From assembly GCA_947492955.1 (NCBI GenBank), contig CANLOV010000006.1, positions 124,001-188,000 of the forward strand: a stretch of DNA of 64,000 nucleotides. The letters run 5' to 3'. How positions within the stretch are numbered: position 1 is the first letter of the stretch; every line of letters starts with the position of its first letter. Below are positions 42,809 to 63,201 of the stretch, in pieces. The position numbers were made by a program, and so were the translations under genes. The notes beneath the pieces are model-generated. The model was given only the letters and a program-made list of their open reading frames with translations, was not told where the DNA came from and did no database searches. The DNA is from an uncultured Cellulophaga sp. GTDB taxonomy: Bacteria > Bacteroidota > Bacteroidia > Flavobacteriales > Flavobacteriaceae.

Positions 42809-45800
42809 TTACTTATCATCTAATTTTTTTATAATTCTCTTATAATAAGTAATACCATTAATATCCATAACCTGTAAAGAATATATTCCTGACATTAAAT
42901 AATCTACATCAATGCTGTAAGAAGTTTGTCCGCCTTTTATTGTATTTGGATTAAATGTTTCTATCAACTTTCCACTACTATCAAAAATTAAAACTCTTTT
43001 TAACACAACTGATGAATTAAAGCTAATAGTAACCTCATTATTTATTATTGGGTTTGGGTATACCTTCATTATTGGAGCCTTAACCTCTATACCTTTAGCT
43101 AATAAAGAGGTAGATACGGGAGTATCTATAATTGTAAAATCTACCGATAAGCCTACTCCTTGATCACCTGCCAAAGATTTCCTCGAAAATGCTTGTGAAT
43201 TTATTGTATACTCTCCTGCTAAAAAATCACCACCTCCATAATTGGTTCCTCTGTTCATATCTCCAAACAATGCATAAGGTGCAAAGTTTTCTGTTTTATT
43301 TATCGTCAATGGTCCTGTAAGGTTCATAGATACACTTTCTGTACTTTCGGTAACTTCTGCTCTTATACTTAAATTTAAAGTTGGCAAACTTTCTATTGCT
43401 ATTTCCATACCATCAGTAATTGTAAACAAATCAATATCCGAATCAGCATCTATTAAAACATAACTTGTGACAGCTATTGTTTCCGACTCAGAAGGCTCCA
43501 AAATTTTAAAATCTACCGATAAACCTGTTCCTTGATCACCTGTTAAAGATTTTCCCGAAAATGCTTGTGAATTTATAGTATAATCTCCAATTAAAAAATC
43601 ACCTCCTATATAATTAGCACCTTTATTTGCATCCCCAAATAAAGCATAAGGAGAAAAATTCTCTGTTCTATTTACTGTCAATGGTCCTGTAAGGTTCATA
43701 GATACACTTTCCGTACTTTCAGTAACCTCTGCTCTTATACTTAAATTTAAAGTTGGTAAGCTTTCTATTGCTATTTCCATACCATTAGTAATTGTAAACA
43801 AATCAATATCCGAATCAGCATCTATTAAAACATAACTTGTAACAGCTACTGTAGGATTAGGAATTACCACAATTTCTTCAATAGTCCAAGTAAAACTTAT
43901 TGTTTTAGCATCCAAAATATTTGAATCACTATCACCTACTGTAACTATAACATTGTATGGCTCATTTACAATAGCATCTAATGCTATTTCTCCTCCTATT
44001 TGGCCATTGGTTGACTCTATAAATACACCACTAGGTAGACCAACAGCGCTAAAACTTAAATTCCCATCCCCTCCAGTTGCCATTGCTACTAAACTACCGT
44101 TTAATATATCTCCTATAGTACTAACTTGGTTATCTATTGCTACAACTTCAATTTCATTCTCTTGAATAGTCCATGTGAAGCTTGCTCTTTTGGCATCTTC
44201 TTTATTGGTATCATTATCGTCTACTGTAACAATAACATTATAAGGTTCACTTGTAATAACATCTAGTGCTATTTCCCCTCCTATTTGACCATTGGTTGGC
44301 TCTATAAATACACCACTAGGAAGACCAACAGCACTAAAACTTAAATTACCATCTCCTCCTATCGCAACTACTGCTAAACTACCATCTAAAATATCTCCTA
44401 CAGTATTAAATTGATTATCTATTGCTGTAACTTCAATTGTATTTTCAATACTATTATCAATTATTTCTATCCCATTAATTAAAGGATTTTCTACACCGTG
44501 AATAAATGAAATATCTATAATTCCATCTGAGACTGTAACTACATTACTAATAACTGTTCCTACTTGATGACCATAAGTTCTGGATAAATCTATATTATCT
44601 AATTCTGTAAAAACTTGACCTTCTATCACTACATCAAAAATTCGTTCTCCAACATTTGATGTACCAGAAAATCCATTGCCCATATACAAACGAACTTCAT
44701 ACTTACCAGATTGCTCAACAGGAAAAGAATAGGTCATATTTGATGTTCCTTTTCCTGTCCATCTTTCTGTGTTATATATACTCTCAGGAGTTTTATTTAA
44801 ATCTACATTAGGAGTATAATCTCCCATGGAGAAACTTGCAGTTGAATTCGTTCCTGCATCTATTAAATAAATAGAATTATCACTAATAGTATCTGCATCC
44901 CAATCAATTTCTCCATCTATAGCTGAAATTTTAGCCCCTCCTGTATTAACACGATATAAAACCTCTTCACTTTTTGCTATTAAACCATTTCCTGTAACAT
45001 TCAAAAAATCCCATGTACCTTCCAATTCAACTCTTTCTTGATTTGATGTTCCTATAAGTCCTACAATTAATTCTTTACTATTTTGCTGTATTGCCTCTAA
45101 AACAGTTCCTTCTGCTTGTATAACTCCTAAAATTTCTCGTGGTTCATTATCAAATACATATTCTAAACTAACTTCTCCTGTACTAGTGCTTATTTCAAAG
45201 AAAAACTGAATTTCTCCGTTAGGCCTTTCTCCTGTGGTAATTAAAGTTTCTATTGCTATTTGGGGTATATCATCTATTTCTTGTAATGCAATTATCTTAG
45301 ATGGATGTATCACAAATTTTATGTAATTACTTTGCGTTCCATCTCCAATAAAAAAACCTAATTCTCCTTCAGGCGTAGCTGTATTACCGTATAATTGCAA
45401 TGGTGCATTAAAATTAATTATACCACCAGAAACTGTAATATCACCAAAATTTTGATTTAATTGAACTCCATACTGAAAAGCTTTTTCCTGTGTATTAGCA
45501 GTCCCAAAAGCCGTTCCTGAAGTCATTTGCATGGTCATAGCCCCAATAGCTCCTCCTAAAACATCATTAGGATTAGGATCTTCTGGATTATCTCTCTTAT
45601 CTAACCAATTTAACCAATTTAAATTTGCATCACCATTATTCATCATTCCTGTAAAACCTAAACCTAAATAACCTCCAAGAGTTGTATCTGAAAATAATTC
45701 ATTGGTAACAGGAATTACAAATGCATCATTTAATGAAGTAATATTACCAAGTTGTAATACATCATCCTTATCTAAAATCCCATCATTATCATCATCATTA

Positions 45801-48957: not shown

Positions 48958-50352
48958 ATGATTACGAATAACAATATTATTGCCTTAGCTACTCCTTCTG
49001 GTGCGGGAGCAATTGCTGTAATTCGTGTTTCTGGTAAAGATGCTATTAAATTAACTTCTCCTCTATTTAAATCTATACATGGAAAAGATTTAACAAAACA
49101 AAAAACACATACCATACATTTAGGGCATATTGTAGATAAAGAACGAGTATTAGATGAGGTATTAGTTTCTGTTTTTAAAGGACCTAACTCTTATACTGGA
49201 GAAAATGTAGTAGAAATATCTTGCCATGGTTCTGCCTACATACAACAACAAATAATTCAGTTATTCTTAAGAAATGGTTGTAAAATGGCAGATGCCGGTG
49301 AATTTACTTTGCGTGCTTTTTTAAATGGTAAATTAGATTTAAGCCAAGCAGAAGCCGTAGCAGATTTAATAGCTTCGGATAATGAAGCTAGCCACCAAAT
49401 AGCCATGCAACAAATGCGTGGTGGTTTTAGTAATGAAATTAAAAAGTTGCGAGAAGAACTTATGAATTTCGCCTCTTTAATAGAATTAGAACTAGATTTT
49501 TCTGAGGAAGATGTTGAGTTTGCAGACCGAAGTCAGTTTAAAGCATTATTAGTACGTATACAAGAAGTGTTAAAAAGGTTAATAGATTCTTTTGCTGTTG
49601 GTAATGTAATTAAAAATGGTATTCCGGTAGCTATTGTAGGTGAGCCTAATGTGGGGAAGTCTACCTTACTAAATGCATTATTAAATGAAGAGCGTGCTAT
49701 TGTAAGTGATATTGCAGGTACTACACGAGATACTATTGAAGATGAAATTGCCATTGGCGGTATTGGTTTCCGATTTATAGATACAGCAGGTATACGAGAA
49801 ACTAAAGATGTTGTAGAAAGTATTGGTATAAAAAAGACGTTTGAAAAAATAGATCAGGCACAAGTAGTTCTTTTTTTAGTAGACGGTACTAAATTAGCAG
49901 CAACTACTATTATTGATGCCTTAAAAGTTGAAATTGAAAAAATTAAAAACAAATATCCGCTTAAACCAACTGTTCTCTTAATAAACAAAGCAGACACTTT
50001 AACTAAAGAAGATAAAGAAAGTATTGATAAGCAATTAACAGATATTAATTACCTATCTGCTAAAACAGGAGAAGGTATAGAAAATCTTAAAAAACAACTT
50101 CTAAATTTTGTAAACACTGGTGCATTGCGTAATAACGAAACAATTGTTACCAATACCAGACATTACGATTCTTTATTAAAAGCCTTAGAAGAAATAGAAA
50201 AAGTACAGTTTGGTATAGAAAACGGAGTATCTGGAGACTTACTTGCTATAGATATTCGCCAAGCGCTCTTCCACTTTGGTGAAATTACCGGAGAAATATC
50301 TTCCGATGATTTATTAGGTAATATTTTTGCTAATTTCTGTATTGGAAAGTAA
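48958..50352 (+). CDS. mnmE: tRNA modification GTPase MnmE (TrmE)
   Basis: With MnmG, installs the carboxymethylaminomethyl group on wobble U34 of tRNA. The N-terminal folate-binding domain has IIALATPSGAGAIAVIRVSG and GSAYIQQQIIQLFLRNGCKMADAGEFTLRAFLNGK. The inserted G domain has G1 GEPNVGKSTLL around 227, G3 DTAGIRET and G4 NKAD. The C-terminus FCIGK includes the catalytic Cys. Length 464 is normal. It converges with the giant ATPase gene at a 23-bp gap. Confidence 0.98.
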   Translation: MITNNNIIALATPSGAGAIAVIRVSGKDAIKLTSPLFKSIHGKDLTKQKTHTIHLGHIVDKERVLDEVLVSVFKGPNSYTGENVVEISCHGSAYIQQQIIQLFLRNGCKMADAGEFTLRAFLNGKLDLSQAEAVADLIASDNEASHQIAMQQMRGGFSNEIKKLREELMNFASLIELELDFSEEDVEFADRSQFKALLVRIQEVLKRLIDSFAVGNVIKNGIPVAIVGEPNVGKSTLLNALLNEERAIVSDIAGTTRDTIEDEIAIGGIGFRFIDTAGIRETKDVVESIGIKKTFEKIDQAQVVLFLVDGTKLAATTIIDALKVEIEKIKNKYPLKPTVLLINKADTLTKEDKESIDKQLTDINYLSAKTGEGIENLKKQLLNFVNTGALRNNETIVTNTRHYDSLLKALEEIEKVQFGIENGVSGDLLAIDIRQALFHFGEITGEISSDDLLGNIFANFCIGK

Positions 50353-50375: not shown

Positions 50376-53300
50376 TTACCCATTATCTAAGCCTTTTTTT
50401 AATACATCCTGAATACCTTGTAGGTTTTCACTAAAAGCCATCATTTGTGCTAAAACTTGTGTCATTTCATTTTGCTTCCCTAAACCTTTTAGTTTATTGT
50501 TTTTAGAATAAGTAGTTTTAATTTTACTCCATCTTTCTACTTCTTCATTATCAAGAGTACCTACTAGTTCTTTATACTTTAACAAGTTAGCTTCTGCTGC
50601 ACTGGTTAATGTTTGCGATTCATTTTCGTAATGCGATAACAACAAGGTTTGTAATTCCGAACTATTCATGATAGGAACTACTTTGGCTACCAATTTATTC
50701 ATATCACGGTACGACCCTTGTAGCTTAAAAGAAGGCTCAGTACGATAAGCATCTTCCATTGCTGCCGATTTAATATAGGTCTCGTTTACTTTTAATACCG
50801 TGTCTCTAATCATTAATACTTTCTCTAAGACGGATTTGTATTCTGAAATTTCTTGATTGGTATGATTTCCTTTTAAAGAAAGAGTGTCTGAATTCTTTTG
50901 CGCTATAGCATCTATTAAAGTATACAAATCATCAAAGTTTTTACTACTTAATTGTTGTAAAACAGGATTAGATGTTAAAGCATTTTCTATTAAACTTAGT
51001 TTAAACAAGTCCGCAGTGTCCCCAATAATATCTCCTAAATTATATATATCTGCACGGTTGGCTAACATATCTGGAATCTGAAATTTATCTCCGCTTTCCG
51101 TATACGGGTTTCCTGCCATAATTACGCAAAACTTTTTACTTCTGAGATCATAGGTTTTCGGTTTTCCTTCGAATACTCCTTCTATCTTTCTAGTTCCATC
51201 GGCTAGCGAAATAAATTTTTGTAAAAACTCTGGATTACAATGCTGAATATCGTCTAGGTATAACATTACATTATTTCCCATTTCAAACGCTAAATTCAGT
51301 TTTTTAAGTTCTTGTTTGGCTGCCGAATTATTAGCTGTCATTGGGTCTACAGAAGTTACTTCATGACCAATAGCAGGACCATTAATTTTCATAAAAATTA
51401 AACCTAAACGGTTCGCCATATATTCCATTAAGGTTGTTTTACCATACCCTGGCGGAGAAATTAACAAAAGCATACCCATACGATCCGTACGCTTTTGGTC
51501 TCCTACCGTTCCCAATTGTTTAGCCAAATTATCTCCAAATAAGGGTAAATAAACCTGGTCTATTAACTTATTACGTACAAAAGAAGAAAGTACTCTTGGT
51601 TTAAATTCGTTTAGTTTTAAGGCCTCTTTTAATTCTTCGGTAACCGTATGTTTAGCTTCTCCATAAGCTTTAAATGCAGGAACATCTACATTTACATATT
51701 GTTCTAATTGTTGAATAAACTCATGGTAATTAAAATTAAAAACTCCCTCTTTAATAGAAGCATGCGAGCCTTTTATGGCTGTTACAAGCTGGTTGGGAGA
51801 AACATTAACAATTTCGCTTGTTGTAGATGCATATAATAATAGATAAACCACATCTAAAGTATAGTTTAATTGCTTGGGGTGTTCTTGGCCTAAAAAAGCA
51901 GATATCCATTGGGTTGCTAAACTAATTTTTTGCGCGCTATTCTTATCTTTCAGTGAATTGGTAAAGGTTGTTTTGGCTTTAGATTTTTTAAGATATTCTT
52001 CAAAAGCTATTTTTAATTTATTAGTTTCTTTACTTACTATAAAATCATCTCCAAATCCTAATACTTTATATAAAAATTGACTTCCTTTCTTTATAAATGA
52101 ATTGTTTTCTGTTTCTTTAACAGGAAATACTTCTTCTAAATCTTGCCCTAAAAGTATCAACTCATTTTTACTAGAAATGCCTTGCGGAAATAATTTATAT
52201 ATTTCGCCAAGGTGTTTTAATTTTGATTTCCAATCGCTCTGCTTTTCTTCTGAAAGCTGTTTCCATGCTAATTGTGCCCAACCTCTAATTTCTGGAGCAA
52301 AACTTAAAGTACCTAAATCATTGTACTTATCTAATAAAACTTCTGCAATAGCTATAGCATCAGTATCGTGAACTCCTTTTACATAGCCCGATGCATAGTC
52401 TTTACTACACTTTTCTTTTACTTTTGCTGCCAAGTCTGCTTTACTAATTGCAGCTTTGTCTTCTATTTCTTTAAAAACGGAATATGCTAAATAACAAGAA
52501 CGATAAATTTGTTCGTTTTCTGATATTAATTCTTGATTCCAATATTTTTTTGAACTTGTTAATATTTTATTCTGAATAGGTTGATAAAAATCTGTTCCTA
52601 TTAAGTGGTATTGTAACACCTCATCTTTAAACAGAATGGTTAAATCTAAATTTTGCTGATTAACTGCAAACTTATGCTTTCCAAGTTTTATTATATTTTC
52701 ACCATCCTCGTATAAATCTTGTTTATCTTTTAGTTTACGAATAGCATCTTCTTTAGCAACTTTAATGGATGTTTCTATGATTTCTGCTTTCCCAATATCA
52801 TCAAGACCTTTTAATTGATCTACAATATCTCGTAGCTTATTCAGCATTAAATCTCCTGCAAAATATCCATTGATATCATTAAGCTCTGTAAAACTTAGTG
52901 CTTTTTTAGATACTCCTTTTAAAATACGCTTTGCAGCATTTTCTAATGCCAATGCTTTTTTATTACGAGCCTCTACTAAACTATTTTTTCTGGCTTCAAA
53001 AGCATTGTATACTTCCTCTCGCTTTTCTATAATTTGAACAATAAACGTGTCAAAATCTGCAAAACGAGCTTCTAAATCTTCTAACTGAACCGCTACTTTA
53101 TTTAGTAATTCATCTGTCTTTTCTGGAGAGCTAGATATATCTAAATAATTAATGATGCTTTGATCTACTAATTTTAATTGTGCAACAAAATCTGCCTGTG
53201 CTTCTTCCTTACCAAGACTAGAAACCGTATTTTTTAATCCTGCTTTTAATTCATTTAACGATGAAAAAATTAAAGAAATCCTATCTATTATTTGCGTGGA

Positions 53301-55214
53301 ATGCGAAGTATCCTCGATTTCTAAATTGGAAACAATCTCTATAAGCATCTCTAAATCTTGAGCTATTTGAGTAATTTCTTCTTCTAGTTTTTTACCTTCT
53401 ATTACTTTTTTAATACCAGAAAGTGATTTTTTCTTTTCATGAACTCTTTCATGATAAGGTTGTAATGCTTTCTCATCTAACAAAAACTGTACACAGCGAT
53501 TGGATATTTTATCACTGTACGCTACAATTTCTTTTTCTATATCTTCTATAAAACTTGTATCTACATAACGTACTTCGTTTAAACCAATTACCTCTCCTCT
53601 TAAGGTTCTTAGCTGCGATAAAATAGCTACAAAATCATTAATAGATTTAAACGAACTACTCTTTATTTTTCCAAAAATAGCAGATGCCTTACTTTCTGTG
53701 TCTTGCGTAATACGCTGTGCATTTTTTCGTAACTGTACTACTTTTTCAAACTCATCAATTGCCGCATTGGCTGCATTGTTTATTTCTTGTAAAGGCTCAT
53801 CTAAACGATGCGTATCTGGTTCTTTTATCCAATAATAACTATTGATAATATCATTTGAAAACTTAGATAAATCATCATATAAACCATCATAGCTATCTTC
53901 CTTATTCAGTAAAGTCACTAAACCTTGACATTCTGCCATGGCTTTTACTATGGATTTGTTTCCAATTTTATAAATTAGAGTATCTGTATGTTCCGAAGGT
54001 ATGGTATCTCCTTTTATAAATGGCGTTTGCCAAACTTGAATTACATGATGCCTAGTTTGTTCGTTTTCAGTAGAAAAATAGCATAATGAACCATCCGAAA
54101 AAATAGTATATCCATTACAGACAATAGGAGTTTGTACTTCTTGAGCGATAACATTATACCCCATTAAAATAAAAAGTCCTTGCTTACTTTCATAAAAAAC
54201 ATACAGGTAATCTTCTCCATTTGGAGAAACTACAGTTTTCTTAAAGTTAACATTCTCTAATGACTGATCATACTTTTTAAAAGCTCCTGATTGTAAATAA
54301 TAGCCATCTGCAAAAATAATCCCCTGATCATCTGGTAATTGAATACAGGCATCACCAATACTTTCTATTTTTTTTACATCATGAATTTTATGATTGTATA
54401 CAAAATAGCGACTTGCTTCTTGAAAGGGTTTTATTTCTATAGCTATTAAATTCCCTAAAGCTGCATATTTATATTGACCATCATCTAAAGTTTGATCCTT
54501 ATGTTCTACTGGCTCATTATAGATTCCTTTTCCGTCATCCGTGTTGTCTTCTATCTTTATAGTTAAATCACCTCCAATGGTTTCTACAAAGACTTTATCT
54601 AGAATAGAGATATGCGCATGTGTTCCGTAACGATGTTGATCACGACCAACCTCTACCCACTGAAAATCGTGCTGATCAGGAAATTTAAATTCGTGCTCGC
54701 TACGGTTATCTATATAGCGTAATTCTTCATCTGCAATTAACCACTTAAAGGTTTTTATATCTGTTACACTTTCGCTCAATTGAAATACCAAATGCAAATA
54801 ATTACCTATAATTGCGAACTTAGAAAAAATAGTATTTCTGTAATATTTATACAAATTTGTAAAATCTGAAGCAAAAGTAGCATCTTCAAAAATTGCTAAT
54901 GATTGTAGAACAAACTGCCCTTCCTCAAATTTATAAACACTAAAAACATCTTCTAACTTTATTTCTGTTCGTAATCCAAAATGTACATTATATCCAAAAA
55001 TACAATGTTCACCAATGGTTACAATATCTCTGGCAATACAGCTATTTTCGGTGTTGATGCGATTATTAGCAATTAACTTAGTCTCTACACTACCAAAAAC
55101 TTCTTTTCTTGAAGTATTTAACTGAGATAAACGGTCTAAGAGCGCTGTTTTATGTTTTTGTAAACGGTTCTGAATAATTTCATAGGTACCGCTTTCTAGT
55201 TTGTTTTGTTCCAT
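50376..55214 (-). CDS. Giant coiled-coil MoxR-like AAA+ ATPase (DUF3686-type, named DNA repair ATPase in databases)
   Basis: A 1612-residue cytosolic protein. Residues about 50-430 are beta-rich and propeller-like (VSPNGEDYLYVFYES, GYTIFSDGSLCYFS). About 450-850 is helical coiled coil (LEEEITQIAQDLEMLIEIVSNLE, VAVQLEDLEARFADFDTFIVQIIEKREEVYNAF). About 850-1200 is mixed. A single AAA+ domain follows: Walker A LLISPPGYGKTTLMEY around 1255, Walker B NVMLYLDDIQHCNPE around 1316, and MAGNPYTESGDKFQIPDMLANRAD around 1368, close to MoxR proteins. There is no nuclease, helicase or DNA-binding motif, so the database name is probably misleading. The nearest upstream gene on the same strand is the flotillin, 249 bp away. 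I infer a remodelling machine for the PspA/flotillin module. Confidence 0.85.
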   Translation of the reverse strand: MEQNKLESGTYEIIQNRLQKHKTALLDRLSQLNTSRKEVFGSVETKLIANNRINTENSCIARDIVTIGEHCIFGYNVHFGLRTEIKLEDVFSVYKFEEGQFVLQSLAIFEDATFASDFTNLYKYYRNTIFSKFAIIGNYLHLVFQLSESVTDIKTFKWLIADEELRYIDNRSEHEFKFPDQHDFQWVEVGRDQHRYGTHAHISILDKVFVETIGGDLTIKIEDNTDDGKGIYNEPVEHKDQTLDDGQYKYAALGNLIAIEIKPFQEASRYFVYNHKIHDVKKIESIGDACIQLPDDQGIIFADGYYLQSGAFKKYDQSLENVNFKKTVVSPNGEDYLYVFYESKQGLFILMGYNVIAQEVQTPIVCNGYTIFSDGSLCYFSTENEQTRHHVIQVWQTPFIKGDTIPSEHTDTLIYKIGNKSIVKAMAECQGLVTLLNKEDSYDGLYDDLSKFSNDIINSYYWIKEPDTHRLDEPLQEINNAANAAIDEFEKVVQLRKNAQRITQDTESKASAIFGKIKSSSFKSINDFVAILSQLRTLRGEVIGLNEVRYVDTSFIEDIEKEIVAYSDKISNRCVQFLLDEKALQPYHERVHEKKKSLSGIKKVIEGKKLEEEITQIAQDLEMLIEIVSNLEIEDTSHSTQIIDRISLIFSSLNELKAGLKNTVSSLGKEEAQADFVAQLKLVDQSIINYLDISSSPEKTDELLNKVAVQLEDLEARFADFDTFIVQIIEKREEVYNAFEARKNSLVEARNKKALALENAAKRILKGVSKKALSFTELNDINGYFAGDLMLNKLRDIVDQLKGLDDIGKAEIIETSIKVAKEDAIRKLKDKQDLYEDGENIIKLGKHKFAVNQQNLDLTILFKDEVLQYHLIGTDFYQPIQNKILTSSKKYWNQELISENEQIYRSCYLAYSVFKEIEDKAAISKADLAAKVKEKCSKDYASGYVKGVHDTDAIAIAEVLLDKYNDLGTLSFAPEIRGWAQLAWKQLSEEKQSDWKSKLKHLGEIYKLFPQGISSKNELILLGQDLEEVFPVKETENNSFIKKGSQFLYKVLGFGDDFIVSKETNKLKIAFEEYLKKSKAKTTFTNSLKDKNSAQKISLATQWISAFLGQEHPKQLNYTLDVVYLLLYASTTSEIVNVSPNQLVTAIKGSHASIKEGVFNFNYHEFIQQLEQYVNVDVPAFKAYGEAKHTVTEELKEALKLNEFKPRVLSSFVRNKLIDQVYLPLFGDNLAKQLGTVGDQKRTDRMGMLLLISPPGYGKTTLMEYMANRLGLIFMKINGPAIGHEVTSVDPMTANNSAAKQELKKLNLAFEMGNNVMLYLDDIQHCNPEFLQKFISLADGTRKIEGVFEGKPKTYDLRSKKFCVIMAGNPYTESGDKFQIPDMLANRADIYNLGDIIGDTADLFKLSLIENALTSNPVLQQLSSKNFDDLYTLIDAIAQKNSDTLSLKGNHTNQEISEYKSVLEKVLMIRDTVLKVNETYIKSAAMEDAYRTEPSFKLQGSYRDMNKLVAKVVPIMNSSELQTLLLSHYENESQTLTSAAEANLLKYKELVGTLDNEEVERWSKIKTTYSKNNKLKGLGKQNEMTQVLAQMMAFSENLQGIQDVLKKGLDNG

Positions 55215-55463
55215 TAGTTATTTTGTAACTATTGTCTTCTCTTATTTTAAAATTCTAGACTTATATTATTGAAGAAAATTAATGATGGTATTAATTAAAA
55301 AATACCCAAACAAAAATTCTCTCCAATACTATTAATAAGTTAAATACTTGTTCTTTTGAGCTTGCCTTTTGAAAAATTTATATACAGAATTTATTTTCTC
55401 TATTTTTTATTTCAAAATCAATACTAACAACCCTATTACTACACTTAAAATTAACGTAGACAT

Positions 55464-57590
55464 TTACTTTAATTTTTGTTTATCTATACCTAATCCTTTT
55501 GCTAAATTAGATAGGTTAGAGAATAAATTACTATCGTCACTACTCGTTGCTTTAGACTTTAAATCCATTAGTAAATTAGCAATAGTTAAGTTCTTTATAT
55601 CTTCTGAAGAAATACCATATTTATCGGCAAAACCTTTTACTCTTTCTAACAGATTTCCTTTTACATCATCACTTCCTAAAATGGCATCTTTTACTTCTTG
55701 AATATTGTCTGAATGTTTTACCAAACGATCAATTCCTTTAGACTTAGTAATTTGACCAACAATCTGATCAAAGAACATCGTTTCGCCCCCAACAATATCT
55801 ATATTAGCAGCTTTTAACGCTTCTCCAATTACTGAAGCTTGTGCATCGGCAATTTCTTTATGAACATTAATTTCTGCCAATTCTACTTGTAATTCTTTTT
55901 CTAAACGTAGCTTAAATTCTTCGTGCTCCTTACCTACTCCATCTAACTTTTTCATAGCTTCTGCCTTTTCTTCGATACCAACAGCTTCTGCCAATGCAAT
56001 TTCTTTATCTCCTGCGGCTTTTGCTAAGGCCTTTTCTTTAATTACTTCTGCTTCTGCAATACCTTGCTCTTTACTAGCTTCTGCTTTTGCTAAAATTCCT
56101 GCAGCTTCTGCTTGCGCCTTTTTCTCAATAACTGTTGCTTCTACCATTCCTTCTCGTTCACTAGCTTCTGCTTTTGCATGCATTACTTGCGCCTCAGACA
56201 TACCAAGCGTAGCTTCTTCTTTGGCTTTTGCTTCTGCTAATGTTTTACGTGCGTCTGCCTCTTTAATACTAGCTTCTTTTTGTGCTTGCGCTTCTATATT
56301 AATTTCTTCTGCCTTCTGCTTTGCCGCTTCTTTCTGTGCTTCTGCTTCTTTTATTGTTTTAATAAGTTGCTCTTCTGCATTTGCTTCAGCGGTCGTAATT
56401 TTTACCTGCTTATCTCTATCTGCGGTTTTAAAAGCTTCTATATCCTTAATGTTTTCTTGTTCTTCTACCACACCTTTTTCTAACATTACACGATCACGAA
56501 TTACATCTTGTATGTTCTTTTTCTCTACCTCTACTACTTTTTCTTTCTCTATCTGTGCTAAGGTTACAATACGTTCTCTCTCTGTAGCTTCTAGCATACG
56601 GTCTTTCTCTACTCTTTCTGTTTCTACAGCATCGGTACGCTCTTTATTTTTTGCCGCAACAATAATTTGTCTTGCCATATTTTCCTCTGCTACTTTTACT
56701 TTTTCTTCAGTAACAAGTCTGGCAGTTTCAGACTTTAAACGTTCTTCTTCTGCTACTTTTAAAATTTCTGCTCCTTCTCGTGCTTCAATATTCGCTATTT
56801 CACGTTTTTGTTGTTCTTCCTTTTCTGCTAACTGCTTGTCTAATTCTAAAATAGCCTCACGCGCTTCTACATCTTGCTTACGAATAACTTTCTCTTCATC
56901 GCGCTTAATTAGATTCGACTTTACATTTTGATTTGCTGTTAACTCCGTAATCTTTTTAATACCCTCTGCATCTAAAATATTATCGGGCTTTAAAAAGGAA
57001 ACAGGCGTTTGTTCTAAATAATCAATAGCACAATCTTCTAGCGTATACCCGTTAAGGTCACGACCAATTTCATTTACAATTTTATCTCTGAACTCAGCTC
57101 TAGATTCATATAGTTCTATAAATTGAAATTGTTTTCCTACCGTTTTTAATCCTTCAGAAAATTTAGCTTCAAATAAATCATTTAAAGTATCTAAGGTAGA
57201 AGCTCTTTCACAACCAATAGTTTGTGCAACTTCGATAATTGCTTCCTTAGATTTGTTAACCCTTACAAAGAATGCTACTTTGATATCTGCACGCATATTA
57301 TCTTTACAGATTAAGCCATCTTCTCCGATACGCTGAATTTCAATCTTTTTTACTGATATGTCCATAATCTCTACCTTATGAAGTACAGGAATTACATACA
57401 TTCCTTTATCAAAAGCTACGGCTGTACCACCAAAACCTGTTTTTACCAAGGCTTCTCCTTGTGGTATTTTTTTATAAAAAAGAGCAATAAAAATTACAAA
57501 TAGTACGATTAAAGAGGCTAGTCCTCCTACAACTATTCCAATAATAGTAGCTGTGTTAATTGGTGCAAGCGTAATTAAGAGTGTGTTCAT
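55464..57590 (-). CDS. Flotillin family (SPFH/band 7) membrane scaffold protein, YqiK-like
   Basis: A 708-residue protein. A short outer N-terminus and one transmembrane helix (about 15-42, IIGIVVGGLASLIVLFVIFIALFY) lead into the SPFH domain (about 45-230: PQGEALVKTGFGGTAVAFDKGMYVIPVLHKVEIMDIS, DIKVAFFVRVNKSKEAII). A very long Glu/Ala/Lys helical flotillin region (about 235-560) has AEA- and EAEA-type repeats, followed by a helical C-terminus (about 570-708) probably for oligomerisation. Longer than typical 500-560-residue bacterial flotillins. It lies 8 bp after the NfeD-like gene, its usual partner. Confidence 0.93.
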   Translation of the reverse strand: MNTLLITLAPINTATIIGIVVGGLASLIVLFVIFIALFYKKIPQGEALVKTGFGGTAVAFDKGMYVIPVLHKVEIMDISVKKIEIQRIGEDGLICKDNMRADIKVAFFVRVNKSKEAIIEVAQTIGCERASTLDTLNDLFEAKFSEGLKTVGKQFQFIELYESRAEFRDKIVNEIGRDLNGYTLEDCAIDYLEQTPVSFLKPDNILDAEGIKKITELTANQNVKSNLIKRDEEKVIRKQDVEAREAILELDKQLAEKEEQQKREIANIEAREGAEILKVAEEERLKSETARLVTEEKVKVAEENMARQIIVAAKNKERTDAVETERVEKDRMLEATERERIVTLAQIEKEKVVEVEKKNIQDVIRDRVMLEKGVVEEQENIKDIEAFKTADRDKQVKITTAEANAEEQLIKTIKEAEAQKEAAKQKAEEINIEAQAQKEASIKEADARKTLAEAKAKEEATLGMSEAQVMHAKAEASEREGMVEATVIEKKAQAEAAGILAKAEASKEQGIAEAEVIKEKALAKAAGDKEIALAEAVGIEEKAEAMKKLDGVGKEHEEFKLRLEKELQVELAEINVHKEIADAQASVIGEALKAANIDIVGGETMFFDQIVGQITKSKGIDRLVKHSDNIQEVKDAILGSDDVKGNLLERVKGFADKYGISSEDIKNLTIANLLMDLKSKATSSDDSNLFSNLSNLAKGLGIDKQKLK

Positions 57591-57598
57591 GTTGTTTG

Positions 57599-58327
57599 TT
57601 ATTTATACGATTTTATATAATAGAATTTTTTGTCTTGTGATTCTTTAATAATTAATATTTCTTCTCCCGATATCATAGACTCACCATCTAATGATTTTAC
57701 ATAGATATTTATAGGGTCATTTTCTACAAAAAGCTTGACACTTCCTAGTTTTTCTCCAGAAATATTAGAAAGTAATATTCCTTTTCTCCCTAATAAGTCC
57801 AATGCATCTACGCCTTTGCGTTCCAATTTTCTAAAAAAAGCTTTAAAAGGAGTGGTAAAGATTTTATTCAGAATTAATGCTGGAATAATTGCCGCAAAAA
57901 ATATAGTTAAACCAAATTTATTGTCATAACTTCCTGTGTAATACGTTCCGATGATTGTAATAGCCCACCAGAAAAATATCCATGATGTAAAAGTGAACAT
58001 AAAGGGTAATTCTGAAAAATTGAAGTAGATTAGAAACACCTGCCACCATCTTAGTCTCTTTGGTCGTTTACCTACAATAGTTTCGTTTTTTAGCTCCACA
58101 TTAGATACATCTTCAAGGTCTATTGCGGTAGCATCTAATGAAGTTCCTGTATCAAAATCTGTATCCACATCAATATCTGCATCTACATCAAAATCGAAGT
58201 CAAAATCGAAGTCAAAATCTAGGTCTAGACCTACAATCATCGTTAGTATTCGATAAGCCCCTAAAACAATCAATAATACTGTAAGAGGCGTGTTTATTGA
58301 GGAAAAAGCTAAGTCTATTAATGTCAT
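57599..58327 (-). CDS. NfeD-like/YqiJ-like membrane protein with OB-fold and Asp-rich repeat
   Basis: A 242-residue protein: transmembrane helix at about 10-30, then a striking alternating Asp/hydrophobic run (residues about 34-60, DLDFDFDFDFDFDVDADIDVD), two further helices in about 95-165, and a C-terminal OB-fold (about 175-242: LLGRKGILLSNISGEKLGSVKLFVENDPINIYVKSLDGESMISGEEILII). OB-fold NfeD-like proteins pair with flotillins in many bacteria, as here. An inverted repeat sits in the 97-bp gap upstream of its gene, between it and pspA. Confidence 0.88.
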   Translation of the reverse strand: MTLIDLAFSSINTPLTVLLIVLGAYRILTMIVGLDLDFDFDFDFDFDVDADIDVDTDFDTGTSLDATAIDLEDVSNVELKNETIVGKRPKRLRWWQVFLIYFNFSELPFMFTFTSWIFFWWAITIIGTYYTGSYDNKFGLTIFFAAIIPALILNKIFTTPFKAFFRKLERKGVDALDLLGRKGILLSNISGEKLGSVKLFVENDPINIYVKSLDGESMISGEEILIIKESQDKKFYYIKSYK

Positions 58328-58344
58328 TTAGTTGGTTTGTAAGT

Positions 58345-58420
58345 GTTATTGGTTATCTTTTTTTGTTCCCCCTTAGTAATAACTATAAAATAACAAAACT
58401 GACAACGGATAACCAATAAC
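58345..58420. repeat. Perfect 13-bp inverted repeat between pspA and the NfeD-like gene
   Basis: Arms GTTATTGGTTATC (58345-58357) and GATAACCAATAAC (58408-58420) are exactly complementary with 50 bp between them. The spacing is long for a terminator, so it could be an internal operator, an attenuator or an mRNA-processing structure inside the operon. Confidence 0.7.
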
Positions 58421-58424
58421 TATT

Positions 58425-59132
58425 TTAACTATTTTTTTGTTTTAACTGGTCTTTTAATCTTGCCAGTTCAGCATCTGCTGACTCGGCTGTTACATCCACT
58501 GCTTTATCAATTTCCTCATCTATAGTTTTACTAACATTCGCTATATCTCCATAAGCTTCTGCTAAAGCCTCGTCCTGTGCAACCTTCTCTTTCATACGTT
58601 CTAACATACTCACCGTACTAGAACTATCAATTTCTGCTAACTGTTTGTTTAAATTTTTGGTAGCATCAGAAACTTTTACACGAGCTTTTAGCGTTTTTAG
58701 CTCATTTTCCCATTTGCTAATATTTTGCTTTATTTCTTGTACATTTTTCTCTAACTGTGCCACAGAGTTATCAAATCGAGTTGTTTCTGCTGTTGTACGC
58801 TCTAAGTGTTTGGCATTTTCTTCCTTTTTAATTAAGGCTTCTTTTGCTAAACGATCTGCCTCTTCTACTTCCAAATCTCCGTTATGTGCTTTCTTTAAAA
58901 TCAACATTGCTTTTTGTTGATAATCATCTGCTTTTGCCGCAAATTCTTCTGCATCATTTTTAGCACGTATAGCCAATGCTTTTACTTGTGCCAAAGATTC
59001 TAGACTTTTGCTTAAATCTCCTTTCATATCTCTAATTCCCTGCTCAGTAAGCTTAATAGGGTCTTCCATTTTATCTAAAGCTGCATTCGCTTCAGCTTCG
59101 CCAATTTTAAATAGTCTCTTAAAAAAGTTCAT
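58425..59132 (-). CDS. pspA: PspA/IM30 family membrane-coat protein
   Basis: A 235-residue helical protein of the ESCRT-III-like PspA/Vipp1 family that coats and repairs damaged inner membrane. It starts MNFFKRLFKIGEAEANAALDKMEDPIKLTEQGIRDM, matching the family's amphipathic helix 0/1 and the DP motif. A continuous coiled coil follows (LAQVKALAIRAKNDAEEFAAKADDYQQKA, NVQEIKQNISKWENELKTLKARVKV) and then a Glu/Asp-rich C-terminal helix. No pspB, pspC or pspF is present. It follows the YjfI-like gene by 12 bp. E. coli yjfI-yjfJ has the same pairing. Confidence 0.93.
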   Translation of the reverse strand: MNFFKRLFKIGEAEANAALDKMEDPIKLTEQGIRDMKGDLSKSLESLAQVKALAIRAKNDAEEFAAKADDYQQKAMLILKKAHNGDLEVEEADRLAKEALIKKEENAKHLERTTAETTRFDNSVAQLEKNVQEIKQNISKWENELKTLKARVKVSDATKNLNKQLAEIDSSSTVSMLERMKEKVAQDEALAEAYGDIANVSKTIDEEIDKAVDVTAESADAELARLKDQLKQKNS

Positions 59133-59144
59133 ATCTCTTGTATT

Positions 59145-59537
59145 TTATTTTGAATAATTAATTATCTGTTCTGAGTATTCACTCAGTAATAACCCTAAAG
59201 AATTTAAGCTAGCTTCAAATTCATTAAGATCTAAATTTTCTATTTGTAACGTATCTCTAAAAATTACTTTTTCACCACTTTCATCAAGAACAAAAGCTCC
59301 GTGTACCATATCACGACTCTTTTTTAATAGGTTTTTATATAGTTCTAAACTTGGTGTTTTAATATCAAAAATGTGCTGTTCAATAATAAGTATTGGAGAT
59401 GCTATTCCGAGTATTAAATTATTTATCCCTTCACTTTCTCGATCAACAACAATAATGCTATCTTTTCTATTCTCATAAGAGATGGTAATGTTCAGTTCCA
59501 TAACATAGGACTTCACTAAATCAAAATGGTCGTTCAT
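59145..59537 (-). CDS. YjfI-like / Tir-chaperone (CesT-fold) small protein
   Basis: A 130-residue acidic protein. Conserved-looking core: NNLILGIASPILIIEQHIFDIK, LYKNLLKKSRDMVHGAFVLDESGEKVIFRDTLQIENLDLNEFEASL. The alternating strand/helix pattern and the VHGAF...FRDTL...NLDLNE segment fit the DUF2170/YjfI-type proteins that accompany PspA, which are often annotated as molecular chaperone Tir. It is the first gene of the operon, with a leader of about 160 nt from the divergent promoter. I infer a PspA-binding adaptor or chaperone. Confidence 0.75.
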   Translation of the reverse strand: MNDHFDLVKSYVMELNITISYENRKDSIIVVDRESEGINNLILGIASPILIIEQHIFDIKTPSLELYKNLLKKSRDMVHGAFVLDESGEKVIFRDTLQIENLDLNEFEASLNSLGLLLSEYSEQIINYSK

Positions 59538-59669
59538 ATTTTTATGGTATTTAGGTTTGTTGTTTTGTTTATCGTTACATCACTTCAATTATACTAAAAT
59601 AGTATGAGTTAAAACTACACTAAAAACAAACATTTCGTTACTATTATTAGCAATAATTGACAATTATTT

Positions 59670-59698
59670 TAGCAATTCATTTCATTTTACTATTTTTG
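59670..59698 (+). promoter_or_regulatory. XRE regulator promoter
   Basis: TATTTTTG (59691-59698) is an exact -7 match with a TTTT (59667-59670) 20 bp upstream. It lies 53 bp before the ATG at 59752. Confidence 0.6.
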
Positions 59699-59704
59699 TT
59701 AGCA

Positions 59705-59735
59705 CAAATATAGCATCTATTTTTAGATTTGCAAA
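59705..59735 (-). promoter_or_regulatory. pspA-operon promoter
   Basis: On the minus strand TTTG (59732-59735), exactly 19 bp, then TATATTTG (59705-59712): a full Bacteroidota consensus, identical in both boxes to the rpmH promoter in this window. Transcription would start near 59699, beside a TTAGCA motif. Confidence 0.82.
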
Positions 59736-59751
59736 TAAAATTAGCAAAAAA

Positions 59752-60510
59752 ATGTCATCAATAGGAAAAAATATTAAAAAGATAAGAAGTGTTAAAGGGT
59801 TGAGTCAACAAGCTTTTGCTGATATTTTTAATCTAAAACGTGCTACAATGGGGGCTTACGAGGAAGAACGTAGCGAACCAAAAATTGAGACCGTTATAAA
59901 AATAGCTAATTATTTTAGCATTTCTATAGATGATTTGCTAACAAAAGAGCTTACTGTTAACTCTTTGGTACAGTTTAAAGATGAATTTACCACTGCTACC
60001 TTAAGTAAAACTAAAAACAACTTACCTAATATTCCTTGTATTACCATAGCATATAATGAACAATACACAACTGAAATTAACAATAATAAGTTTATAGACG
60101 GACTTCCTAAATTGTCTTTACCCATAAATCCAGATAAAAAATTTAGAGCTTTTGAAGTCACTAATTTAGAGATGACTACGCATGACAGGGGTTTTTATCC
60201 TAAAGATATTGTGGTAGGTGAATTTGTTCCTAAATCTGTAATTCCTAAGTTAAATAATGGAACTTTAGTATTCTGTGTTTTTGGTAACCAAATTATTTTT
60301 AGAAGATTGTATATCACTAAAAATAACTTAGTACTACGAGCAGACCATATAAATATTAAAGATATTGAAATTACTAACAATGATGTTCTTGAGCTTTGGC
60401 GCGTACGTTATGTGTTTTGTAGAAGAATCCCAGATTTTTCTAATCATTTAGAAGACCAACTTGTATTACTGCACCATGAAATTAGTCAGATTAAAGAGAA
60501 ATTAGGCTAA
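59752..60510 (+). CDS. XRE-family regulator with S24/LexA-like C-terminal domain
   Basis: A 252-residue regulator. Residues 5-65 are a Cro/CI-type HTH (NIKKIRSVKGLSQQAFADIFNLKRATMGAYEEERSEPKIETVIKIANYF). About 100-235 resembles the S24 peptidase/CI fold (FRAFEVTNLEMTTHDRGFYPKDIVVGEFV, TLVFCVFGNQIIFRRLYI). The Ser expected after the Met-containing turn is not evident, and the usual Lys-Arg pair is Arg-Arg, so self-cleavage is unlikely. It is divergent from the pspA operon, so I infer it controls that operon. Its last 9 bases overlap the convergent helicase gene. Confidence 0.87.
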   Translation: MSSIGKNIKKIRSVKGLSQQAFADIFNLKRATMGAYEEERSEPKIETVIKIANYFSISIDDLLTKELTVNSLVQFKDEFTTATLSKTKNNLPNIPCITIAYNEQYTTEINNNKFIDGLPKLSLPINPDKKFRAFEVTNLEMTTHDRGFYPKDIVVGEFVPKSVIPKLNNGTLVFCVFGNQIIFRRLYITKNNLVLRADHINIKDIEITNNDVLELWRVRYVFCRRIPDFSNHLEDQLVLLHHEISQIKEKLG

Positions 60511-63201
60511 TAATTTTTCAAGCCTATTAATAACTAAAATAGGTCGTGTTTTCCAAAGAGAATACAGTATCGGAAAACTTAACACCCCAATTCTTGCAAA
60601 AGTTTTATAGCGTTCTAAACTAAAGTGATTTGCAAAATCCCCCTCATCTCCTATTAAGTCTATAAAAACTTTAACATCATTTTTTACGACTAGTAAATCT
60701 AAGATTTGCCCTCCTAAAGGATAATTAGCTATAATATCATCATAATCTTTTTTCTTTAAGGCATCATACACCTCTTTTTGAAAATGATGTGTGGGTTTTT
60801 CATAGGTAATATCAATTTCTTGGTCTTCTAGAAAATGTAAATACTCATACAAAAGAGAAGAAGATTCTAATTTATTAACATCTAGGGAATGGAATATTTG
60901 CTGGTATTGTTTTGCCCTAGTTATAGCTACATTTAGCACATCTGGCCTATTTATATACCGAAAAGCACTATGATGAGATTCATTATCAATGCAAAATGAT
61001 AGTAGCATAATATCTCTTTCATTCCCTTGAAAATGATAGGGTGTTCCACACAAGACATCAAACTTTTTAAGTATTTCTAAGGTATATCTACTTTTTAATT
61101 CTTTTTTTAGATAATTAACCTGATCTCCAAAAATGGACAATATGCCAATACTACAAGGCTTCTTCGCATGTTTAGAAATTAATTCATCTAAAGTCAATAA
61201 TAAAAGCTGTCCTTCTATTTCATTTTGTCCTTTATCTTCTCTTTTTGCTCCAGCTCCAGTGCATTTACACACCATTGTTTTTAGCTCTTTGTGTACATCT
61301 GGAGTTGCTTTTAATACCTGTAACTGATTATCATAAAACTTCTTGTTGCTAAAGCCAATAATTTTTGGAGACGACCTAAAATGCTCTCTTAAAAAAGAAA
61401 CCTGGTCTTGATGTTGAATATGCTCTAAATAAACATCAAGTATACTTTTATCTCTATAGTTAAATAGCGAATTATCTGGTAAAGAAAGTTTCTTTCTAAA
61501 TTGTTGTTGTTGCTTTTTTGAAATAAATGAATAATGCTTTAATTGTTTTGGATCACCAGCAATAACTACTTTTTTAGCTCTATAAATAGCAGGAAGTACA
61601 GAAGCAATATCACATTGAGTTGCTTCATCTATAATCACAACATCAAACAATTCTTTATGTGTAGGTAATACCGCATTTAACTCAGATAAATGAGCTAACC
61701 AAAGTGGAAAAGCTTTAAAAATATGATCAAAATTTAAGGTATCTACTTTTCGCTTATACTCTGAGAAATTTTCGCTTTGTAACGCATCATTATAAGCAAC
61801 TAGACTCAATCGTTGATTAGTAACTGCATTTTTAACATTATAATCTATACGCTCTAGTACATATTTCTTTAAGTTATTTGTTAAGGATTTATTTCTGTTT
61901 TCTATTTCAAACAATAAATCCCATATGGTTTCATCCAGATATATAAAAAGTTTAATATATAACTTTTTAAAAATATCGCTAGCTCTTATTTCCTTTCTAT
62001 TATTTATTTCTCCTAAGTCCACCTCAGCTCCAGCTCTTTTCAGGAATTCTTTTTCTGCCTTATGTAGATTATCTATATCATTGTTATACTTATTATATGC
62101 TTCTTCTAACCAATTAGGCCCATATACCCCTCCTAAAAGTCGCGTTAATTTGGCTTCTAAACTTTTTTTATAACTATGACCAGAAGTATGAATTATATAC
62201 CTTTTAAGACGATAATCGTTAATTAACATATTGTGCAACACCTCTACTGCGGACTTTGTTTTAGAAACAATAAGTACGGATTGACCTCTAAGAATACAAT
62301 CTACCGTAACAGCGCAAATAGTATATGACTTTCCTGTTCCTGGAGGACCAACGATAACACTATTATGATATTTCTGCACATTTTGCAATGCTTTAAATTG
62401 ATCACTATTAAGTTGATGTTTTAATACGCTATCAACATCTTGTTCCAATATTTTGGACTGTTTATTAAGTAATTCAGTTATTGGCTTACCAAAATAAGGT
62501 TGTTCTTCTATTTTTTTAAGGTCTGTAATTACCTTTAGAGCATTATTTATTTTTGGAACTAAGCTGACTAAGGCACCAGGGATAATTTTAAATATGCCTT
62601 TTTGATTTGAATTTCTTAAATACTTTGTGATTTTAGCTTGAGACCAAACCTTAGGAAAATACATTAATTCTTCTGCATCCACATTTTTAAAATACTTTTC
62701 TAAAGATCGCTTTAGTAAAAAAGCGTCTGTTATATCTTCATAAAAAAAACGTTCACAATCGTTTATAAAACCTTCAATACTAGATTTTATAGAATAAGGC
62801 AGAAACTTGTTTAGTACTAACCTATTTACAATACCTTCTTGTTTATTAATCCTTATATAACTTGTGTTGTCCTCTCCCTTTTCTATTGTAGCTGGATATA
62901 ATATTAAAGGAGCAAAAAGATTTTTATTTTTTGATAATGTATTTTCATTAACGCCAAGTACAAAAAAGGTTGCATAATACAGTTGTTTTTCTAGCTTATA
63001 TAAAGTTATATCTGCTAGTAATTCTTCTTCCTTTTTATGAAAAAGAGGAAGTATAGGATATTGCCCAGTAAGCAGTTCTTCTTTCTCCTTTATAAAATGT
63101 TTGTATTGGTATTTAGCTTGCCCTAGATTCTCTACAGAAAATCGATTATTATCTATTTCATAACATTTTCTAAAATATTCATGAAAAGCTTTTGGTTCCA
63201 T
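60502..63201 (-). CDS. Superfamily 1 helicase (DNA2/NAM7-like) with degenerate REase-like C-terminus
   Basis: An 899-residue protein. The N-terminal region (to about 265) has LFAPLILYPATIEKGEDNTSYIRINKQEG, typical of helicases of this branch. Walker A is VIVGPPGTGKSYTICAV around 285, the Ia-like segment VLIVSKTKSAVEVL follows, and Walker B is VVIIDEATQCD with IAGDPKQLKHYSF around 535-560. The C-terminal helicase core has FLREHFRSSPKIIGFSN, GTPYHFQGNERDIMLLSFC and DVLNVAITRAK (motif VI). The last 120 residues (FQKEVYDALKKKDYD, QILDLLVVKNDVKVFIDLIGD, LERYKTFARIGVLSFPI) resemble DUF559/Vsr-type nucleases, but the catalytic Glu-x-Lys is not intact. It may act in DNA repair or defence. Confidence 0.85.
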   Translation of the reverse strand: MEPKAFHEYFRKCYEIDNNRFSVENLGQAKYQYKHFIKEKEELLTGQYPILPLFHKKEEELLADITLYKLEKQLYYATFFVLGVNENTLSKNKNLFAPLILYPATIEKGEDNTSYIRINKQEGIVNRLVLNKFLPYSIKSSIEGFINDCERFFYEDITDAFLLKRSLEKYFKNVDAEELMYFPKVWSQAKITKYLRNSNQKGIFKIIPGALVSLVPKINNALKVITDLKKIEEQPYFGKPITELLNKQSKILEQDVDSVLKHQLNSDQFKALQNVQKYHNSVIVGPPGTGKSYTICAVTVDCILRGQSVLIVSKTKSAVEVLHNMLINDYRLKRYIIHTSGHSYKKSLEAKLTRLLGGVYGPNWLEEAYNKYNNDIDNLHKAEKEFLKRAGAEVDLGEINNRKEIRASDIFKKLYIKLFIYLDETIWDLLFEIENRNKSLTNNLKKYVLERIDYNVKNAVTNQRLSLVAYNDALQSENFSEYKRKVDTLNFDHIFKAFPLWLAHLSELNAVLPTHKELFDVVIIDEATQCDIASVLPAIYRAKKVVIAGDPKQLKHYSFISKKQQQQFRKKLSLPDNSLFNYRDKSILDVYLEHIQHQDQVSFLREHFRSSPKIIGFSNKKFYDNQLQVLKATPDVHKELKTMVCKCTGAGAKREDKGQNEIEGQLLLLTLDELISKHAKKPCSIGILSIFGDQVNYLKKELKSRYTLEILKKFDVLCGTPYHFQGNERDIMLLSFCIDNESHHSAFRYINRPDVLNVAITRAKQYQQIFHSLDVNKLESSSLLYEYLHFLEDQEIDITYEKPTHHFQKEVYDALKKKDYDDIIANYPLGGQILDLLVVKNDVKVFIDLIGDEGDFANHFSLERYKTFARIGVLSFPILYSLWKTRPILVINRLEKLLA

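Follow-up and report, generated by a model that had tools for sequence, protein, structure and literature searches.

The classical Psp system comprises PspF, PspB and PspC together with PspA. ESCRT-III filaments are disassembled in an ATP-driven manner by Vps4, which carries N-terminal MIT and Vps4 C-terminal domains; the prohibitin–AAA protease pair combines an SPFH scaffold with an AAA+ ATPase, and AAA+ ATPases of the MoxR type typically, although not universally, have a VWA partner protein. An SPFH scaffold with an AAA+ ATPase is also described for HflKC–FtsH (PMC13220708), SPFH genes are paired with NfeD-like genes in YqiK–YqiJ, YuaG–YuaF and QmcA–YbbJ (PMC2636767), B. subtilis PspA works with the SPFH protein YdjI at the membrane (PMC8581546), and target remodelling and metal insertion are attributed to MoxR proteins (PMC13036017). 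Closest to the locus studied here is the operon type in section 19 of Ravi et al. (2024, mSystems; PMC11237479), which joins CesT/Tir–PspA to a TM–band-7–coil flotillin, a novel coiled-coil/propeller AAA+ protein and a 3TM YqiJ/YuaF-type protein; shorter operons without PspA, perhaps working with PspA elsewhere, and ESCRT-like roles proposed for PspA-linked ATPases are also reported there.

The window, by which we mean the whole 64,000-nucleotide stretch of DNA analysed (uncultured Cellulophaga sp., contig CANLOV010000006.1), carries the same gene set, with a putative counterpart of the YqiJ/YuaF-type protein, and its cassette is a real operon and a further member of the described class. A preliminary description had held that the five-part set deserved description; with the operon type already in print (PMC11237479, section 19), this no longer applies, and a reading of the locus as an undescribed operon was ruled out. 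What is new here is the build of the cassette: a clearer division into two modules, a regulator dedicated to it and a more precise placing of the ATPase. The main text of Ravi et al. does not contain the term XRE, and section 19 names no regulator for the group and gives no counts of the two operon forms, no operator, no promoter and no MoxR assignment. An ORF check of the window placed all five genes on the minus strand from 59537 to 50376, and the spacings of 12, 97, 8 and 249 bp claimed in the preliminary description proved exact on recheck. Between the ends of the ATPase gene and mnmE lie 23 bp, and 214 bp separate cesT from the start of the divergent XRE regulator. The features are as follows.

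50376..55214, minus strand: ATPase, 1612 aa, with DUF3686 at residues 25–461, a coiled coil with DUF7902 at 582–663, a helical linker and a predicted C-terminal MoxR-class AAA+ domain at about residues 1200–1550 (ORF, Pfam, models, fold comparison)
51099..51470, minus strand: AAA+ P-loop core, ATPase residues 1249–1372 (AAA_5 match, invariant columns)
55464..57590, minus strand: flotillin-type SPFH protein, 708 aa, with an N-terminal hydrophobic stretch, Band_7 and a long coiled coil (ORF, Band_7)
57599..58327, minus strand: putative NfeD-like/DUF1449-type membrane protein, 242 aa, with an Asp-rich (DxDxD) loop past the first hydrophobic segment (ORF, alignment, weak YuaF match, annotation of the Hymenobacter orthologue)
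58425..59132, minus strand: PspA/IM30 (ESCRT-III superfamily), 235 aa (PF04012, PDB PspA/Vipp1 matches)
59145..59537, minus strand: CesT/Tir-like chaperone (CesT_Tir_1), 130 aa (PF22550)
59647..59653, plus strand: third TTAGCWA site (motif scan)
59669..59675, plus strand: TTAGCWA site lying downstream of the promoter predicted for cesT (motif scan)
59705..59735, minus strand: predicted promoter toward cesT (Bacteroidota consensus match)
59741..59747, plus strand: TTAGCWA operator-like site beside the regulator gene start (motif scan)
59752..60510, plus strand: divergent XRE regulator, 252 aa, with an S24/LexA-like C-terminal half without the Ser-Lys dyad (Pfam, alignments)

The 235-aa protein matched PspA_IM30 (PF04012) in Pfam at E 3e-42 and PspA/Vipp1 in the PDB, and is the sole PspA match in the genome at E 0.001. 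The 130-aa protein matched CesT_Tir_1 (PF22550) at E 2e-53 and, with the two genes 12 bp apart, forms the CesT–PspA dyad that marks the class of Ravi et al. PspF, PspB and PspC were not among the cassette genes by Pfam. For the flotillin, Band_7 was matched over residues 1–200 (E 3e-16); Pfam gave neither a match for the full-length protein nor a separate flotillin C-terminal domain, the hydrophobic N-terminus and coiled coil were read off the sequence, and the SPFH profile (A6) found no match among PDB sequences. The identity of the 242-aa protein as an OB-fold NfeD-like protein, as first proposed, is plausible but weak: nothing exceeded the cut-off in Pfam, nothing was matched in NCBIfam, the one hit of the family profile, YuaF (2k14), fell short of significance (E 0.17), and the Hymenobacter orthologue is annotated DUF1449. 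With this weak assignment, the locus shows the SPFH–NfeD pairing known from the systems above, to which it adds the giant AAA+ protein as a regular member.

Pfam matches on the 1612-aa protein were DUF3686 (E 1e-179), DUF7902 (1e-25) and AAA_5 (1e-8). The N-terminal DUF3686 region was propeller-like in the model by fold comparison, and the protein thus has the N-terminal propeller and coiled coil that Ravi et al. give for the AAA+ member. Assignment of the predicted AAA+ fold to the MoxR class, already suggested in the preliminary description, is well supported, with CbbQ and NorQ the closest folds among the matches listed. The 50 fold matches listed included no Vps4 chains, which excludes nothing on Vps4 likeness. 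PPGYGKTT, a Walker B with terminal DD, N1369, R1387 and R1503 were invariant across 54 aligned members, R1387 and R1503 lying past the P-loop core (residues 1249–1372). AAA_3, the MoxR-type model, scored 12.7 bits on the ATPase, below its cut-off of 27, and AAA_5 passed its own. No VWA match was obtained in the five products by Pfam, and the Pfam matches of the cassette included no protease domain and, at E 0.1, no MIT or Vps4 C-terminal domain. An HExxH motif occurs once in the ATPase, at residue 588; the five other proteins in the alignment do not conserve it. DUF3686 proteins bear the Pfam/NCBI name 'DNA repair ATPase', which nothing among the present results backs, and a full-text literature search found no mention of 'DUF3686'.

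Set against the known ATPases, the protein shares its predicted fold with CbbQ and NorQ, but is a single chain with propeller and coiled coil, has no VWA partner in the cassette and falls below the AAA_3 cut-off. It resembles HflKC–FtsH and the prohibitin–AAA protease in the pairing of SPFH with AAA+, but lacks a Pfam protease domain and a conserved HExxH. With Vps4–ESCRT-III it has in common the notion that ESCRT-III-like filaments are the target of an ATPase, but neither MIT nor the Vps4 C-terminal domain was matched and the ATPase is not tied to PspA. SPFH and PspA occur together here as in PspA–YdjI, for which the abstract and outline of PMC8581546 name no comparable ATPase.

A sample of 238 Bacteroidota genomes contained DUF3686 in 6, and all six loci (the window and five that were fetched) held the six-gene set. 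A scan with one genome per species then gave at least 547 ATPase relatives, the best 80 of which were analysed with locus profiles built from the six cassettes; the counts that follow refer to these 80. Upstream gene content could be assessed in 66, defined by over 4 kb between the start of the locus and flotillin, and 14 loci were set aside (L014, L019, L024, L049, L052, L056, L058, L068, L076, L081, L082, L083, L088 and L089). The full order XRE regulator–CesT–PspA–NfeD-like–flotillin–ATPase was present in 39 of the 66, the PspA match of one (L055) being weak at 66 bits; the remaining 27 held NfeD-like–flotillin–ATPase alone, and there were no intermediates (0/66). The linkage of the five genes and their possession of a divergent regulator, as first described, are supported, and repetition of the order of all six genes in 39 loci is beyond chance, these loci being related and not independent. 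Flotillin was present in 74 of the 80 loci, or 74 of 75 assessable ones: five of the six loci without it had less than 2.3 kb of sequence upstream of the ATPase, and L068 has 10 kb there but no flotillin. The NfeD-like gene accompanied flotillin in 71 of 74 loci, and in the other three (L014, L081 and L089) the contig ends just before its place. All 39 full loci were from Bacteroidota; judging by record titles, core-only loci occur in Planctomycetota, Kiritimatiellota, Desulfobacterales, Calditrichia, Saprospiraceae and Pontibacter, among others. In two genomes the XRE–CesT–PspA block and the core were found at separate places (L093 with L088; L094 with L054). In several genera the flanks of the locus were common to species, pointing to vertical descent there.

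Twelve records of a plasmid collection, in which large replicons are also filed, were retrieved at E 1e-20 and 11 were read, a second Proteus record (H4) being left out. These span Pseudomonadota, Actinomycetota, Deinococcota and Bacteroidota; flotillin–ATPase was present in 11/11, the NfeD-like gene in 10/11 (one weak, at 33 bits) and PspA upstream in 2/11. A Hymenobacter plasmid carries the full cassette, and pQBR103 encodes on one strand PspA, a rhomboid protein, DUF2491, DUF350, DUF1190, a glutathionylspermidine-synthase-family protein, the NfeD-like protein, SPFH and the ATPase. Pairwise distances in 36 cassettes (all but L055, L063 and L092) correlated with those of the ATPase at 0.89 for flotillin, 0.83 for PspA, 0.89 for XRE and 0.71 for the NfeD-like protein, so that the unit mostly descends together. 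Gene content, and which genes travel together, are settled.

The divergent gene encodes an XRE-type protein (HTH_19, 1e-10) that also matched S24, though below threshold (E 0.005). Found in 39/39 full loci and 0/27 core-only loci, it belongs to the PspA block. When six regulators were aligned the HTH half was kept, and three (L010–L012) had a shorter, barely alignable C-terminal part. With the positions of the catalytic dyad set by the LexA/S24 motif, the Ser-Lys pair of autocleaving repressors was not found in 39 rows: where a row kept the next Met, its Ser position held E, D, T or A, and the Lys position was mostly R, with K in L065 and no alignment there in L063, L075 and L092. With these catalytic positions replaced, self-cleavage of the regulator appears unlikely.

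The motif TTAGCWA occurred 96 times in 10,909 bp of 42 regulator–cesT regions (8.8 per kb; shuffles, mean 7.2 and maximum 23), a density that is partly circular because the motif was chosen by k-mer enrichment in the same regions, its positions and other regions serving as controls. Between flotillin and ATPase (25,360 bp) it occurred 10 times, and between PspA and the NfeD-like gene (5,478 bp) not once; the 9,300 bp ahead of core-only NfeD genes had 3 copies, and the 958,753 bp of whole loci had 560. Sites lay 2–4 bases from the regulator start in 26/42 regions and 55–58 bases from it in 22/42, with 8 further regions, mostly those with a longer regulator ORF, having a site at 35–36 bases; 6/42 regions, five of them outside Flavobacteriaceae, had none. 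In the window the sites are 4, 76 and 98 bases from the regulator start, and the usual site at about 57 is absent. The window promoter consists of TTTG (59735–59732), a 19-nt spacer and TATATTTG (59712–59705), and fits the Bacteroidota consensus TTTG/TANNTTTG (PMC6847099). An element of the form TTTG-N18-21-TAHHTTT[AG] pointed toward cesT in 28/42 regions (shuffles 0.86, maximum 5), at position 14–16 in 24 of the 28, and toward the regulator in 2/42; the strict form with final G was present in 11/42 regions, the window among them. A sigma-70-type scan gave no excess over shuffles, as expected for Bacteroidota, and perfect palindromes in the regulator–cesT region differed from locus to locus. 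A shared regulatory region, with TTAGCWA and a promoter at set positions before cesT, is thus well supported by sequence comparison for most Flavobacteriaceae loci, and the geometry of sites and promoter suggests that the XRE protein is probably a repressor of cesT–pspA.

The dependence of the ATPase on PspA was examined in the 32 genomes with an ATPase and no adjacent PspA (the 27 core-only loci plus L068, L076, L082, L083 and L088). PspA was found over the cut-off elsewhere in 20 and not over the cut-off in 12, some of which may be gaps, as metagenome-assembled genomes of unstated completeness are included; titled strains among the 12 are Hyunsoonleella pacifica, two Pontibacter and Rhodopirellula baltica BR-MGV. 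In the Bacteroidota sample, PspA accompanied DUF3686 in 6/6 genomes, there as part of the cassette, against 87/232 others (Fisher p 0.003). In Planctomycetota it was over the cut-off in 17/23 DUF3686 genomes against 25/126 without DUF3686 (p 8e-7); the DUF3686 genomes are larger, and shuffling within size bins, with kinship ignored, gave 12.1 expected against the 17 seen (p 0.002). Of these planctomycete genomes 2/23 had PspA within 10 kb of the ATPase, one locus reading PspA–PspA–NfeD–flotillin–ATPase–PspA and the other having a weakly matching PspA 6 kb upstream of the ATPase. PspA genes thus precede the core in two lineages besides the Bacteroidota cassette (pQBR103 and the planctomycete), without the XRE–CesT parts. 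Based on the 12 genomes without PspA, the linkage in other lineages and the planctomycete co-occurrence, PspA appears to be neither required by the ATPase nor random, but a recurrent partner. In the PspA tree, 43 cassette-type rows fell on one side of a branch (96/95) and the planctomycete and pQBR103 rows on the other, the placement of these outsiders being unsure because the pQBR103, planctomycete and L055 rows have long branches; independence of the PspA lineages therefore also leans on gene order and low profile scores. Eleven CesT–PspA pairs from loci without flotillin or ATPase fell among the cassette-type rows. Retention of flotillin with the ATPase in 74/75 loci, together with the genomes that lack PspA, suggests that the ATPase belongs first to flotillin, PspA being an optional, recurrent partner. 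The linkage first proposed, which would have failed had the ATPase stood without PspA or flotillin in most genomes, accordingly held for flotillin and was partly contradicted for PspA, missing beside the ATPase in 27/66 loci.

The explanation that we tentatively prefer, at somewhat under even confidence, is that two modules are joined, a flotillin/NfeD/ATPase machine and a regulated CesT–PspA unit, with PspA or the CesT complex as one client; it is less secure in that 6/42 regions have no operator-like site at all and the window is without the second one found in most relatives' usual arrangement. The NfeD-like protein, flotillin and DUF3686 ATPase would constitute a widespread membrane machine, in which flotillin and the NfeD-like protein may form an SPFH scaffold at the inner membrane, the ATPase may dock on it via propeller and coiled coil, and the MoxR-type ring may remodel client proteins, as NorQ and CbbQ do on bound partners. 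The XRE regulator, CesT-like chaperone and PspA would make up a regulated membrane-protection unit, whose regulator, probably a repressor answering to an inducing signal, would act on sites around one promoter driving cesT–pspA and the genes behind. In the Bacteroidota cassette the CesT–PspA pair would supply the flotillin scaffold with ESCRT-III-like filaments, and PspA, by itself or in its complex with CesT, may be one client of the ATPase there, a role allowed by the linkage in two other lineages and the co-occurrence in Planctomycetota. A wider proposal, which we regard as doubtful, is that this is a further SPFH–AAA+ machine beside HflKC–FtsH, with a non-proteolytic MoxR-type ATPase on flotillin–NfeD scaffolds into which several lineages plugged PspA independently, the flotillin domain being the site of ATP-driven ESCRT-III turnover and the XRE switch a Bacteroidota feature. 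At stake are turnover of PspA, the bacterial ESCRT-III, without Vps4 and possible ATP use by flotillin scaffolds; one gene run joins SPFH scaffold, ATPase and PspA. The comparison points to ATPase–flotillin as the first pair, the ATPase genomes without detectable PspA are natural controls, and the operator-like sites and promoter offer a handle for finding the inducing stress by reporter.

The preliminary description had cast the ATPase as a dedicated Vps4 for PspA, extracting subunits from filaments on flotillin domains. This idea is demoted, and we consider it unlikely: PspA does lie upstream in the same run in 39/66 loci and before the core in two other lineages, co-occurs positively in Planctomycetota and is present in all six DUF3686 genomes of the Bacteroidota sample, though as part of the same cassette, but Vps4-like turnover as the main job is at odds with the 27/66 loci and 12/32 genomes noted above and with the near-constant flotillin. 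Moreover, the Pfam matches are without an MIT or Vps4 domain, the fold is closest to MoxR, and ATP is bound and hydrolysed by PspA rods themselves according to PMC11746142. Presence of the ATPase without detectable PspA in those 12 genomes would suit a MoxR-like maturation chaperone that activates or metallates a membrane enzyme in flotillin domains, with PspA merely guarding the same membrane; NorQ and CbbQ as closest folds among the matches listed, and the remodelling and metal insertion reported for MoxR proteins (PMC13036017), speak for it. No cassette product matched VWA, however, and by clustering no neighbour family beyond the six occurred in more than 11 of the 80 loci (best 80 of at least 547), and this reading is rather unlikely. 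Under co-regulation only, a single promoter in Bacteroidota would serve two stress modules that are independent and make no physical contact. This reading draws on the clean separation of the modules and their lying apart in two genomes; it is made quite improbable by PspA ahead of the core, with the XRE–CesT parts missing, in two more lineages and by planctomycete co-occurrence beyond genome size, kinship ignored.

A role as anti-phage or mobile-island cargo, with the cassette as a defence system, seems very improbable. It would account for the patchy spread (6/238 genomes, and DUF3686 ATPase absent from 17/17 other congener species searched, with DUF3686 genome G445 left out of the reading), the variable site at mnmE and an adjoining helicase similar to defence helicases. 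No PADLOC system fits the five products, however, which gave only weak single matches (ATPase with IetA at 0.002; PspA with JetC and LmuB), and the defence candidate was not supported; the shared flanks in several genera also point to vertical descent there. Left of mnmE, three genes matched in 10/10 congeners examined, and to its right, within about 9 kb, the cassette proteins and the helicase were unmatched in 10/10 and ORF sizes differed among all 10. In a search for an island boundary marked by a copy of the mnmE end, the last 18 bases of mnmE, with up to 2 mismatches, were not repeated in the window or the 39.8 kb to its right; its last 15 bases recurred as two 2-mismatch copies, 37 kb away.

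The NfeD-like protein of the core carries an Asp-rich stretch after its first hydrophobic segment:

58157-58225, minus strand, Asp-rich DFDFDFDFDVD stretch of the NfeD-like protein

A similar DxD pattern was seen by alignment in many members of the NfeD-like family, and the stretch may bind cations. When the neighboring flotillin (55464-57590, minus strand) was searched at full length, no Pfam match was returned; searching with its first 200 residues gave Band_7 at 3e-16, so automatic annotation may miss SPFH proteins that have extended coiled-coil regions.

Among the compared loci holding relatives of the window ATPase, many from outside Bacteroidota (L053, L061, L062, L074, L077, L084 and similar) encode longer ATPases of about 1690-1910 amino acids, the added length being mainly an extra C-terminal stretch. 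Additional ORFs lie between the flotillin and ATPase genes in L013-L018, L042, L059 and L086, chiefly from Aquimarina. On plasmid pQBR103 (L123), a single run comprises PspA, rhomboid, DUF2491, DUF350, DUF1190, a glutathionylspermidine synthase family gene, NfeD-like, SPFH and ATPase. In a planctomycete locus (L134), two PspA genes precede NfeD–flotillin–ATPase and a third follows it; no CesT or XRE match was found within this stretch.

The 3' side of mnmE (48958-50352 and rightward), whose end adjoins that of the ATPase gene, looks like a variable site, since all 10 of the 10 congeners retained the left-hand genes and had different ORF sizes to the right. At the other end of the cassette, a helicase gene overlaps the end of the divergent XRE regulator gene by 9 bp:

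60502-63201, minus strand, SF1 helicase, 899 amino acids

This helicase showed partial likeness to the defence helicases PDC-S37, MkoC and Hhe, and its C-terminal nuclease match was sub-threshold. Elsewhere in the window, 42809-47662 (minus strand) encodes a 1617-amino acid protein whose translation shows internal repeats.
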